DNA of 64,000 nucleotides from an uncultured Clostridia bacterium (GTDB lineage: Bacteria > Bacillota > Clostridia > Christensenellales > Borkfalkiaceae), in NCBI GenBank assembly GCA_944330115.1, contig CALVIN010000004.1:124001-188000 (forward strand). Direction: 5' to 3'. Made by a program: the position numbers and the translations under genes. The notes under the pieces are model-generated. The model saw nothing but the letters and a program-made list of their open reading frames with translations, did not search any database and was not told the DNA's origin. Shown piece after piece: positions 27,429 through 59,570 of the stretch (positions are counted from its first letter, which is position 1; every line of letters begins with the position of its first letter).

Positions 27429-27645
27429 AAAATTCCTCCCCGGCGCCTCTGCGGGCGCTTAAAATTTTGCCGCTTTCCGCCTTGCTAACATATAATATTT
27501 TACTTATCCCGCCCGTAACACGGCAATTTTTGGCAAGTCGTGTCGAACGGTATATAATGCGCGCGCGGCGCTGCAAAATACTGTAAATTTGATTCAAATG
27601 TAACAAAGTTGTTAAAAAATTTCAAAATAAAATGCTCAAAAAAAA

Positions 27646-27687
27646 GTTTACACATAACTTGACAGGTGTATACTTTTAGTGTAAACT
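27646..27687 (+). promoter_or_regulatory. Promoter with overlapping dyads ahead of the NAD-synthesis block
   Basis: TTGACA (27659-27664), a 17-bp spacer and TAAACT (27682-27687). The perfect inverted repeat GTTTACAC (27646-27653) / GTGTAAAC (27679-27686) brackets the promoter, and TTGACAGGTGTATA forms a second, imperfect dyad over the -35. A niacin-responsive NiaR-type repressor is encoded 3 kb downstream, so this is a good candidate for its operator; the assignment is inference. Confidence 0.65.
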
Positions 27688-27693
27688 AAGTGC

Positions 27694-28012
27694 AATCTCA
27701 GAGGAAGAGCACAGGGTTCCTTAAAAAGCGGAACTCAACGTTATCTGGGACGGCGCACGGAAAGGCTGCAGACGCGGCGGTGTATTACCGGCATCGGGCG
27801 GCAGCAAAACGCAGGTTTTGTTTTCTGTGTCGCAGAGCAAGACAATATGCGGAGTCGGTGTATTTCCGCCGCGTAAGTCTTTGTTCGTTTGCAGGGCAGG
27901 CTCGCGGGGACGGTGTATTTCCGCCTCGTTCTTAAAAGGCGCACAGCCTTTAAGAATAATCCCGCCCGAATGTTAAAAGCATGCCGCGGCGGATATTTCC
28001 GCCGCGGCTTTA
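27694..28012 (+). ncRNA. Putative structured RNA of about 320 nt upstream of nadB
   Basis: Bounded by the promoter at 27659-27687 and the terminator at 27983-28012. Inside are several self-complementary modules: GTTCC...GGAAC near 27717-27736, three similar units with CGGTGTATT(A/T)CCG (near 27777, 27859 and 27919), and a TTCTTAAAAGGC...GCCTTTAAGAA hairpin near 27931-27957. No plausible ribosome site plus reading frame is present: the longest frame starts at a GTG without a Shine-Dalgarno and looks non-protein-like. I could not match it to 6S, tmRNA, RNase P, SRP or a riboswitch I know. It may be a stand-alone RNA or a long nadB leader. Confidence 0.55.
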
Positions 28013-28014
28013 CT
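27983..28014 (+). terminator. Terminator closing the putative RNA gene
   Basis: A perfect 10-bp stem (27983-27992 with 27999-28008), loop ATATTT, followed by TTTACTTTT. It lies 80 nt before nadB, so it would act as an attenuator if nadB shares the upstream promoter. Confidence 0.8.
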
Positions 28015-28095
28015 TTTACAAAAATTTTTACAGAGGTTTAAAAATTTACATTCATATAAAGATACCTGCTCTTTGCGGCAGGGGAGGAGCACCAT

Positions 28096-29418
28096 TTGAT
28101 CGAACTAGATAAGTATTACGACGTCATAATCGTCGGCGCGGGCGTTGCGGGGCTCAACTGCGCGCTCAACCTCCCGCGTGAAAGAAAGATCCTTATAATC
28201 TGCAAAGATACGCCCGATAAGTCTGATAGTTACCTCGCCCAGGGCGGCATCTGCCGCCTCGTCGACGAAAACGACTATCAGGGCTACTTCGACGACACCA
28301 TGCGCGCCGGCCACTACGAGAATAACCCCGCCACCGTCGACTGCATGATACGCAATTCGCAGGCGCTCATCGACGATCTCATCGCCTGCGGCGTGCGCTT
28401 TGCCCGCAACCCCGATGGCTCGCTCGCATACACGCGCGAGGGCGGCCATTCCCGCCCCAGGATATGCTTCCACGAGGACTGCACGGGCAGGGAGATAACC
28501 ACCCACCTCATGCAAAAGGTGCGCGGCTGTGCAAACATCTTTATCGCGCCCTATGTTACCATGGTGGACATAATAGAGAGCAACAACCAGTGCTACGGCA
28601 TCGTCGCCAAAGACAGCAAAAACGGCAAGCTCTACAGGCTGTATGCCGACTACACAGTGCTCGCCTCGGGCGGCCTGGGCGGCGTGTTCGAAAATTCCAC
28701 CAACTTCCGCATACTCACGGGCGACGCGCTGGCAATATGCTTAAATCACAACGTCGCCGTCGACCATATAAACTACATTCAGATACACCCCACAACGCTC
28801 TACTCCAAAACAAAGGGCAGGCGCTTCCTCATTTCGGAGAGCGTGCGCGGCGAGGGCGCCGTGCTACTCGATAAAAACTTCAACCGCTTCTGCGACGAGT
28901 TGCAGCCGCGCGACGTGGTGACGCACAACATACTCGAGCAGATGAAAAAGGACGGCACCAAGCACGTGTGGCTGGATATGCGCCCCATCCCCAGGGAGGA
29001 GGTATTAAAGCACTTTCCCACGATAGTGCAGCGCTGCCTCGACGAGGGCTACGACGTCTTCCGCGAGTGTGTGCCCGTGGTGCCCTCTCAGCACTACTTC
29101 ATGGGCGGCATACGCTCAGACCTTTGCGGCAGGTCGACGATGAAGAGGCTGTACGCCGTGGGCGAAACGTGCTGCAACGGCGTGCACGGCGCAAACAGGC
29201 TGGCTTCAAACTCTCTGCTCGAGAGCCTCATATTTGCCAAGCGCGCCGCGCAGGACATACAAAAGAACTACAAGCGCATCAACTTCGAGTATGCCGAGCG
29301 CGCCGAAATTGCGCTCGATCTCTCTAAGTACGACAACGTGCCCGCGCTCTTAAAGAAGTATAAGGGCATAGTATTAAAGGCGATAGAGGAGGCCGAACGT
29401 GAACAACCCCATAACTGA
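28096..29418 (+). CDS. nadB: L-aspartate oxidase
   Basis: A 440-aa FAD enzyme that turns L-aspartate into iminoaspartate, the first step of de novo NAD synthesis. The FAD-binding VIIVGAGVAGLNCAL is near residue 14. Other family motifs are SYLAQGGICR near 46, SVRGEGAVLLD near 254 and HYFMGGIRSDLCG near 335. At 440 residues it lacks most of the C-terminal helical extension found in 530-residue enzymes; short forms occur in Clostridia. The start codon is TTG, supported by GGGGAGG 8 nt before it. It overlaps nadC by 20 nt. The quinolinate synthase partner nadA is not in the window. Confidence 0.93.
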   Translation: MIELDKYYDVIIVGAGVAGLNCALNLPRERKILIICKDTPDKSDSYLAQGGICRLVDENDYQGYFDDTMRAGHYENNPATVDCMIRNSQALIDDLIACGVRFARNPDGSLAYTREGGHSRPRICFHEDCTGREITTHLMQKVRGCANIFIAPYVTMVDIIESNNQCYGIVAKDSKNGKLYRLYADYTVLASGGLGGVFENSTNFRILTGDALAICLNHNVAVDHINYIQIHPTTLYSKTKGRRFLISESVRGEGAVLLDKNFNRFCDELQPRDVVTHNILEQMKKDGTKHVWLDMRPIPREEVLKHFPTIVQRCLDEGYDVFRECVPVVPSQHYFMGGIRSDLCGRSTMKRLYAVGETCCNGVHGANRLASNSLLESLIFAKRAAQDIQKNYKRINFEYAERAEIALDLSKYDNVPALLKKYKGIVLKAIEEAEREQPHN

Positions 29419-30256
29419 AAAACTGCATGCCGACAGGCTCATAAAGATGGCGCTCGAGGAGGACATCTCCAACGAGGATATAACAACAAACGCCGTTATG
29501 CCCGGCTATAAAAAGGGCACGGTAGACCTCATCGCCAAGCAAAACGGCGTGATATGCGGCCTCAACGTGTTTGCGCGCACCTTCACGCTGCTCGACGAAA
29601 ACACCGTCGTAGAGCTCTTCAAAGAGGAGGGCGACGAGGTGAAAAATGGCGAGCACATTGCAAAGGTGACGGGCGATATCCGCGTGCTGCTCTCGGGCGA
29701 GCGCACGGCGCTCAACTATCTTCAGCGCATGAGCGGCATAGCAACCTACACGCGCAGGGTGGTAAAGCTCTTGGAGGGCTGCAAAACAAAGCTGCTCGAC
29801 ACGCGCAAAACCACGCCCAACATGCGCATATTCGAAAAGTACGCCGTAAAGGTGGGCGGGGGAGTAAACCACCGCTACAACCTCTCCGACGGAATACTCT
29901 TAAAGGATAACCACATCGGCGCGGCGGGCAGCGTTGCGGCGGCGGTAAAGGCCGCGCGCGAGTATGCTCCCTTCGTCCGCAAGATAGAGGTGGAGGTCGA
30001 AAACCTCGATATGTGCCGCGAGGCGGTGGAGGCTGGCGCCGATATCATCATGCTCGACAATATGTCGGTAGAGGATATGACGGCGGCGGTAAAGCTCATC
30101 GACGGCCGCGCCCTCACCGAGTGCAGCGGCAACGTCACCGAGGGCAACATAGAAAATATCAAAAAGACGGGCGTTGACTACGTCTCCAGCGGCGCCCTCA
30201 CCCACTCCGCACCAATTCTGGACCTCTCGCTAAAAAATCTCCACCCCATCGACTGA
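29399..30256 (+). CDS. nadC: Nicotinate-nucleotide pyrophosphorylase (carboxylating)
   Basis: A 285-aa phosphoribosyltransferase that makes nicotinate mononucleotide, CO2 and PPi from quinolinate and PRPP. Characteristic stretches are SGERTALNYLQRMSGIAT near 99, LDTRKTTPNMR near 132 and KVGGGVNHRYNL near 150. The LKDNH loop near 168 and the DIIMLDNM strand near 216 complete the active site. The GTG start at 29399 lies inside the nadB end and follows GAGGAGG by 6 nt, so the two are translationally coupled. A palindromic repeat element begins 19 bp after its stop. Confidence 0.95.
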   Translation: MNNPITEKLHADRLIKMALEEDISNEDITTNAVMPGYKKGTVDLIAKQNGVICGLNVFARTFTLLDENTVVELFKEEGDEVKNGEHIAKVTGDIRVLLSGERTALNYLQRMSGIATYTRRVVKLLEGCKTKLLDTRKTTPNMRIFEKYAVKVGGGVNHRYNLSDGILLKDNHIGAAGSVAAAVKAAREYAPFVRKIEVEVENLDMCREAVEAGADIIMLDNMSVEDMTAAVKLIDGRALTECSGNVTEGNIENIKKTGVDYVSSGALTHSAPILDLSLKNLHPID

Positions 30257-30620: not shown

Positions 30621-31133
30621 ATGAAAGCAGAATCAAGAAGAAAAGAAATACTTGCCATTGTGGGCAACAGCGATAATGCCCTGCCCGCAGCTGTCCTTGC
30701 CGAAAAGCTGGGCGTATCCCGCCAGGTGATCGTGCAGGATATCGCTATGCTGCGCGCCAACGGGTACGATATAATCTCCACTAACCGCGGCTATATAATC
30801 ACCGCGCCCAAGAGCGCCGCCACCCGCGTGTTCAAGTGCAGGCACACCTTCGAGCAGATACTCGACGAAGGCTACCTAATAATCGGCCTCGGCGGCAGGG
30901 TGGAGGACGTGTTCGTCAACCACAGGGTGTACGGCAGAATAACGGCGCGGCTCGAGCTGTATAACAACACCCACGTGGAGGAGCTGTACCGCTCTTTAGT
31001 CAGCGGCGCTTCAAAGCCGCTCATGGCCGTCACCGACGGCTATCATTATCACACGGTGTCCGCTCCCGACGAGGCCGCGCTCGACAAAATAGAGTGCGCC
31101 CTGCGCGAGGCAGGCTACCTCATAGAAATTTAA
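30621..31133 (+). CDS. niaR: NiaR-type niacin-responsive repressor
   Basis: A 170-aa regulator. Residues about 1-60 form an HTH_11 (BirA-like) winged helix (EILAIVGNSDNALPAAVLAEKLGVSRQ, broken here into its motif LGVSRQVIVQDIAMLR). The 3H ligand-binding domain follows, with its namesake histidines in KCRHTF near 74, VNHRVYG near 97 and YHYHT near 143. NiaR binds nicotinic acid and represses NAD synthesis and niacin uptake genes in Firmicutes, which fits its position next to nadBC. There is no Shine-Dalgarno site: the palindromic element ends just 10 bp before the ATG and has apparently replaced the native leader. Confidence 0.88.
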   Translation: MKAESRRKEILAIVGNSDNALPAAVLAEKLGVSRQVIVQDIAMLRANGYDIISTNRGYIITAPKSAATRVFKCRHTFEQILDEGYLIIGLGGRVEDVFVNHRVYGRITARLELYNNTHVEELYRSLVSGASKPLMAVTDGYHYHTVSAPDEAALDKIECALREAGYLIEI

Positions 31134-59299: not shown

Positions 59300-59403
59300 A
59301 TACCATGAAAAATGTGTTGCAGCCGCAAAAGTTTGTTAAAATTTGGCGGCAGGCGAGTGTAAGGCGCGCCGCAACGCCTTTTCATCAAAACAGTTTTAAA
59401 GTA

Positions 59404-59541
59404 AGTTCTTTGGGGCGGGGTGCAATTCCCCACCGGCAGTGATTGCCTCTCCGGGCATAAGTCTGCGACGAAAGATGGGCTGTCTTTCCTGATGCGGTGC
59501 AACTCCGCAACCGACGGTATAGTCCGGATGGTAAAAGAATT
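59404..59541 (+). promoter_or_regulatory. FMN riboswitch (RFN element)
   Basis: The conserved core is recognisable: GGGGCGGGGTGCAATTCCCC, ACCGGCAGTGA, GATGCGGTGCAACTCCGCA, ACCGACGGTATAGTCCGGATG. It binds FMN and controls riboflavin genes. A terminator lies 30 nt further on, so FMN binding should stop transcription before ribU. Confidence 0.95.
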
Positions 59542-59570
59542 ATTTTATCAAACCGCAAGATTTTTTTGCG

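Follow-up and report, generated by a model that had tools for sequence, protein, structure and literature searches.

The genes nadB and nadC of the window (the whole stretch of 64,000 nucleotides analysed here) are preceded by a structured leader RNA, in which three copies of a small bulged hairpin lie between a regulated-looking promoter and an intrinsic terminator. This RNA is best explained as a cis-acting transcription attenuator leader, whose hairpins would bind a regulator, probably a protein; the probability of this reading is put at about 0.5. Sequence comparison shows four things: the hairpin exists, its stems covary, within the genus Candidatus Coproplasma it is confined to nadB leaders, and it is coupled to a terminator. 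Since the repeated hairpins end in a transcription stop signal, the leader RNA probably helps to decide whether the NAD genes are read.

The initial annotation had matched this RNA to no known family, and a search of the region against Rfam 15 agrees with it, giving no match at gathering score (seven at E<=10, all far below the cut-offs). The 15 related leader loci described below gave two matches at E<=0.1, both at 450-538 of L055, outside its leader and below the cut-off. No description of the RNA was found in the available parts of the literature searched, mainly open-access (including PMC7713382, PMC5343564, PMC2864571, PMC3369931, PMC7297122 and PMC7749635). It is therefore filed here as an undescribed structured leader RNA. 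The features of the region are listed below, hairpins being scored with R1, a covariance model built from 23 hairpins.

27640..27687 (+), nadB promoter block, with the operator-like inverted repeat TTTACAC-N12-GTGTATA and then GTGTAAA (sequence, consensus matching)
27694..28095 (+), nadB leader RNA (sequence; start placed from the promoter spacing)
27768..27798 (+), bulged hairpin copy 1, loop UGUAUUA, bulge GG (R1, 33.4 bits)
27835..27886 (+), outer helix GAGCAAGAC/GUCUUUGUUC carrying copy 2, arms 27835-27843 and 27877-27886 (sequence, constrained local fold)
27846..27876 (+), bulged hairpin copy 2, loop UGUAUUU, bulge [A]GU (R1, 28.2 bits)
27901..27931 (+), bulged hairpin copy 3, loop UGUAUUU, bulge GA or A (R1, 28.0 bits; fold)
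27929..27956 (+), extra hairpin TTCTTAAAAGGC/GCCTTTAAGAA, a lineage-specific insert, arms 27929-27940/27946-27956 (sequence)
27983..28012 (+), intrinsic terminator, stem 27983-28008 of 11 pairs, then TTTACTTTTA
28081..28089 (+), ribosome-binding site of nadB, GGGGAGGAG (sequence)
28096..29418 (+), the gene served by the leader, which from pathway knowledge and its neighbours we take to be nadB, L-aspartate oxidase, TTG start (FAD_binding_2, E 3e-72)
29399..30256 (+), nadC, quinolinate phosphoribosyltransferase, overlapping the end of nadB (QRPTase_C/N)
30621..31133 (+), NiaR-like repressor gene, after a gap past nadC (HTH_11 and 3H domain)

The layout first proposed for this region is borne out by these features. 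The promoter at 27659-27687 is present (-35 TTGACA at 27659-27664, 17-nt spacer, -10 TAAACT at 27682-27687, by consensus match), the terminator at 27983-28012 has its 11-pair stem followed by TTTACTTTTA, and the domain matches of the three genes agree with a nadBC pair next to a NiaR gene. The roughly 320 nt described as lacking a credible reading frame are crossed by ORFs of 81 aa (+) and 67 aa (-), and no small frame preceded by a Shine-Dalgarno (SD) sequence was found in this leader (genome G000).

The three variants of CGGTGTATT(A/T)CCG reported from the interior, about 290 nt between promoter and terminator, are located at 27778-27790, 27856-27868 and 27911-27923, and each belongs to one of the three hairpins (R1 28.0-33.4 bits). 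All 3 occurrences of the string GGTGTATTNCC in the 64-kb window fall within this RNA, for 0.11 expected, and a count of 3 was reached in 1 of 100 shuffles. Two further stems had been pointed out, GTTCC/GGAAC (27716-27720/27730-27734) and TTCTTAAAAGGC/GCCTTTAAGAA. Both exist in the window but, by reading, the first is not conserved in the other 14 leaders that carry such hairpins, and the second differs or is missing there.

All hairpins follow one plan, made of a variable outer stem, a 5' bulge G-N, NGG, a heptaloop YGUAYUN, CCN and the returning stem, the inner stem being the 3 bp of NGG/CCN. Within the genus, 49 copies were found in 15 genomes, ten of which have 3 copies, three have 4, one has 5 and one has 2. 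Their loops read TGTATTT (20 copies), TGTATTG (14), CGTATTA (8) or one of four other forms (7). It should be emphasized that copies were collected by a pattern or model requiring GG-YGUAYUN-CC, so that part of the constancy at those positions comes from the collection itself. No such requirement applied to the outer stems, the bulge G or the N-N pair: the G two bases 5' of NGG is found in 49/49 copies, and the first N of NGG pairs with the last N of CCN in 48/48 distinct copies.

Covarying stems in related nadB upstream regions, a check set beforehand, were indeed found. In an alignment (A2) of the 48 distinct copies, which come from the narrow base of one clade of 15 species and are non-independent within a genome, double changes occupy 83 cells versus 35.5 in shuffles, and 82.4% of cells are paired, versus 63.9% in shuffles and at most 54.2% when the structure is slid by 1-3 columns. 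For four of five measures the observed value was reached by none of 500 shuffles; for the fifth, which counts the pairs showing at least one double change, 314 of them reached it. In paired cells, double-change cells and covariation score, the structure does better than its slid versions; slide +2 has as many pairs with a double change, and yields 28 further pair types versus 27.

Folding alone is not decisive as evidence for this hairpin. Constrained local folds give at least 4 enclosing pairs in 49/49 copies and, in 28 of them, an unopposed bulge of 2 nt, the other 21 adopting other geometries. Unconstrained folding gives the motif a probability >0.5 in 29/49 copies only. Leader stability without the terminator ranges from z -3.9 to +0.2, clearly beyond shuffles in some leaders only, and the fold of 27694-28012, terminator included, reaches z -5.1. 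In ten genomes, the penultimate copy sits on a longer helix, which is GAGCAAGAC/GUCUUUGUUC in the window and, by eye, GAACAAGGC/GCUUUGUUC or GGGCAAGG/CUUUGCCC in some relatives, with a less clear pairing in G015 and G115. This outer helix was recognized from per-sequence folds and reading by eye; a consensus fold of the penultimate domain (MAFFT, 10/15 sequences) gave nothing beyond the hairpin motif, probably because the alignment misplaced the helix. The G083 leader (L054) also holds a third hairpin with a CUUGUUG loop and a kept stem, possibly a decaying copy.

Comparison of the region by BLAST with 61 genomes (its own and 60 relatives; 20 loci read) places the promoter block upstream of nadB and finds the RNA only in some. 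R1 was then applied to 93 genomes of Candidatus Coproplasma, up to 78 candidates being scored per genome, and gave a match at E<=1 in 41 of them. Neighbouring clusters of at least two copies are present in 15/93 genomes, all between the promoter block and nadB, and the R1 search found no hairpin array away from nadB in any of the 93. The nadB gene was found in 89 genomes (four gave none). The array genomes are exactly those whose nadB is 82-100% identical to that of the window, the other 74 being at <=78%; since all genomes at >=82% bear the array, its loss inside the clade is not seen. A nadB tree of 39 genomes (of 41 with the locus, two truncated rows being left out) groups the 15 array-bearers, 15/15, in one clade (support 100/95), with a single state change. 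Array leaders differ from that of G000 at 20-31% of aligned positions, and their -10-to-nadB distance is 218-419 nt. In 26 array-lacking genomes that were read, leaders measure 1-119 nt where the promoter was recognised (24/26). Some array-lacking sisters (such as L203, L179 and L196) have a short GC hairpin (CGGACGGAGG..CCGCCCG type) close to the ribosome-binding site of nadB; this hairpin may be a precursor or a control element of its own.

Beyond the genus, species genomes of GTDB 220 were scanned for tandem hairpins with a strict pattern (TGTATT loop, 30-60 nt spacing) that divergent versions could escape. Among the 60 stretches obtained, 9 from congeners were set aside and 51 were scored with R1. 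L114 alone scored like the hairpin family and is from a congener too, and the 50 non-congener stretches gave no credible member. The best of these 50, L078 from Variovorax (24.0 bits), was rejected, as it lies in a repetitive proline/tyrosine coding frame; L079 (22.4 bits) and L128 (20.6 bits) come next and the rest score lower. Viral contigs gave 25 stretches, the best at 16.8 bits with R1, and no credible member. An R1 scan of 396 genomes of the order gave a match at E<=0.05 in 22, namely two array genomes (G000 and G068) and 20 others without a second copy on the same contig; as it scored at most 18 candidates per genome under strict filters, this shallow scan counts as a weak negative. The surroundings of 16 of its 18 new loci were inspected, and several resemble conserved coding sequence.

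The array is closely tied to a terminator. Consensus matching with a custom script, used to call terminators and promoters, finds a terminator between the array and nadB in 15/15 array leaders (-17.0 to -28.7 kcal/mol), 21-77 nt after the last hairpin copy, whereas only 1 of 24 array-lacking leaders has a terminator-like site, a weak one (-4.5 kcal/mol). Array and terminator therefore behave as one module, which would have been inserted between the old promoter and nadB. The gap between terminator and nadB start is 21-129 nt across the 15 leaders, none of which has a sigma-70-like promoter match downstream of the terminator; in G000, the array itself contains a weak promoter-like match (9/12, 27932-27960), on the upstream side of the terminator. 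In six genomes (G031, G069, G032, G083, G116 and G068) the gap is only 21, 23, 35, 36, 36 and 41 nt, much of it made of the U-tract and the ribosome-binding site. This leaves little or no room for a second promoter, so that nadB appears to depend on terminator read-through. If the nadB mRNA is supplied in this way, the RNA is a cis-acting attenuator, in layout at least. With 6-8 U in 10, the U-tracts are modest ones, and termination may thus be partial without regulation. No conserved antiterminator was detected among the 15 leaders, the pairing of the upstream leader with the 5' arm of the terminator ranging from z -2.6 to +1.6 relative to shuffled leaders and falling below -2 in 2/15.

The promoter itself looks regulated and carries an operator-like repeat. 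A second promoter match (TTTACA-16-TATACT, 27647-27674) overlaps the first, and 15/15 array genomes share the GTGTAAA/TTTACAC half-sites and the two overlapping matches. Relatives have inverted repeats such as CTTTACAC-N12-GTGTAAAG, plus a further GTGTAAA. Congeners have the block upstream of nadB whether or not they carry the array. Its strict pattern occurs in 57/93 genus genomes, at a single site in each except G030, which has two, and the only match in the genome of the window is at nadB. The published type I operator of NiaR is TGT-N4-ACA, according to the part of the source available (PMC7713382), and is absent from 27640-27700 by reading of the sequence. Control of the nadB promoter by the neighbouring NiaR-like protein is therefore only plausible, and a different form of NiaR operator is possible there. 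The nadA gene lies at G000:C7:36792-37676. Its membership of the same regulon was rejected, since it is unlinked to nadBC and the nadB-type operator is absent from the 20 nadA loci examined.

The attenuator reading would work as follows. From the regulated-looking promoter, a leader with 2-5 bulged hairpins (three here) and then a terminator would be transcribed, and RNA polymerase would have to pass this intrinsic terminator to reach nadBC. A regulator, most likely an RNA-binding protein meeting several sites in a row, may contact the RNA at the bulge G, which is invariant, and at the YGUAYUN loop. Its binding could alter terminator read-through, or the folding of nearby RNA, according to NAD demand. 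A constant bulge and loop, free stems and variable spacing are what would be expected of a protein-binding array.

In its working, this leader seems most like the attenuator leaders with tandem recognition hairpins that are targets of ANTAR proteins. In the eut and nas systems, as far as the source is available, tandem hairpins with 3-bp stems and conserved terminal loops lie upstream of an intrinsic terminator, and their hexanucleotide loops have conserved A1 and G4 and pair alternatively with the terminator (PMC3369931). The leaders described here share the tandem small hairpins, the 3-bp stems, the conserved loops and the position upstream of a terminator. However, they have YGUAYUN heptaloops (49/49, a form required by the collection) and a 5' bulge, and their last copy is 21-77 nt from the terminator, with no conserved alternative pairing. 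Such pairing would be unneeded if the regulator acts without it, hence a classification as working like an attenuator. No match to an ANTAR protein was obtained in the genome, in a search to which the control genomes gave no match either. The binding loops of PyrR, the IRE and the operator of the MS2 coat protein also combine a conserved loop with a 5' bulge placed a few pairs beneath it; their bulge and loop sequences appear to differ from those described here.

The main rival of the protein-binding array is an array of small-molecule aptamers. Each hairpin, or pair of hairpins, would bind a small molecule of NAD metabolism, the copies sharpening the response and the terminator serving as expression platform. 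Conservation of the bulge and loop nucleotides while stems vary, and a position before an NAD biosynthesis operon, would suit such a tandem riboswitch. Furthermore, the NAD+-I riboswitch (nadA motif) is also described, in the parts of the sources available, as tandem bulged stem-loops, with two domains and a ACANCCCC bulge, and as limited to Acidobacteria (PMC7297122, PMC7749635). The likeness, which extends to leading NAD biosynthesis genes, is superficial: here there are 2-5 hairpins with a G-N bulge, a YGUAYUN loop and an intrinsic terminator, and the ACANCCCC bulge occurs in 0/15 leaders. The NAD+-II riboswitch (pnuC motif) is likewise an NAD-related leader RNA, but is given in the available part of its source as one aptamer, which may contain a pseudoknot, located ahead of pnuC (PMC7749635), unlike the array before nadB. 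A relaxed Rfam scan gave no match to it in the region, in so far as the library includes this motif. The variable spacing and copy number, the lack of any Rfam riboswitch match and the use of 3-5 copies of a ~30-nt hairpin with few conserved bases, which would be unusual for an aptamer, make this explanation an improbable one.

To a comparable degree, it is doubtful that the RNA acts as a stand-alone small RNA, made when nadB is induced, whose loops would pair with or titrate a partner in trans like a sponge, read-through into nadB being incidental. In sponge RNAs of the CsrB/RsmZ type, whose best known target is CsrA, hairpins are repeated along a single RNA that has a promoter and a terminator of its own. 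The repeated identical loops, the promoter and the terminator seen here recall this multi-site layout. Moreover, the loop core GUAY reads as self-complementary, so that loop-loop contacts are possible, and kissing between loops may be considered as an idea. However, the loops have no GGA, CsrA gave 0 matches in the genome (in a search whose control was positive in 3/14 genomes), arrays were found only in cis to nadB among the 93 genus genomes and, in the six species where the gap is 21-41 nt, nadB appears dependent on read-through. The initial annotation had hesitated between a stand-alone small RNA and a new NAD-related leader. The leader is favoured by the arrays found only at nadB, the terminator and the six short gaps, while the sensing of an NAD-related signal is deduced from the downstream genes alone.

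A passive or selfish insert, in which a repeat element would have entered the leader and been retained for mRNA stability or by chance, is very unlikely. It would fit the single origin in one clade and the variable inserts that flank hairpin copies. Elsewhere in the genome, two nearly identical copies of a repeat of ~400 nt also contain GCGGTGTATTACCGC (near 1501 in L001 and L005; G000:C3:57175 and C12:7645). By reading, however, the bulged-G register is missing from this repeat, which may have no relation to the hairpin. The maintenance of pairing while stem sequences change, the bulge G kept in 49/49 copies, the absence of visible loss within the clade and the lack of arrays elsewhere in the 93 genomes also argue against a passive element. 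Attenuation by a leader peptide, suggested by a terminator preceding a biosynthetic operon and by SD-preceded small frames in 5/15 leaders (those of G032 and G083 resembling each other), was rejected, since no frame is common to the set, the other 10 leaders, including that of the window, having none, and since the frames of G032, G083 and G002 begin within hairpin copy 1.

Whichever kind of molecule binds it, the YGUAYUN/bulged-G hairpin could be a new type of receptor, either an arrayed riboswitch aptamer or a site recognised by some RNA-binding regulator of NAD synthesis, that arose once in Coproplasma through the addition of array and terminator to an already regulated promoter; this broader proposal is a tentative one, at slightly less than even odds. 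If true, the birth of an attenuator could be placed cleanly: in sister species the same promoter stands close before nadB, one clade interposes hairpins and a terminator, the two arrive together and their loss within the clade is not seen. The 31-nt hairpin, present in 2-5 copies, would also be a well-defined bait for the regulator or the ligand of NAD synthesis.

Two other observations concern the window. The terminator stem at 27983-28008 reads CGGATATTTCCG, and CGGTATTTTCCG in G014, and resembles a decayed hairpin copy. Elsewhere in the window, an FMN riboswitch aptamer is found at 59402-59543 (+), with 107.9 bits.
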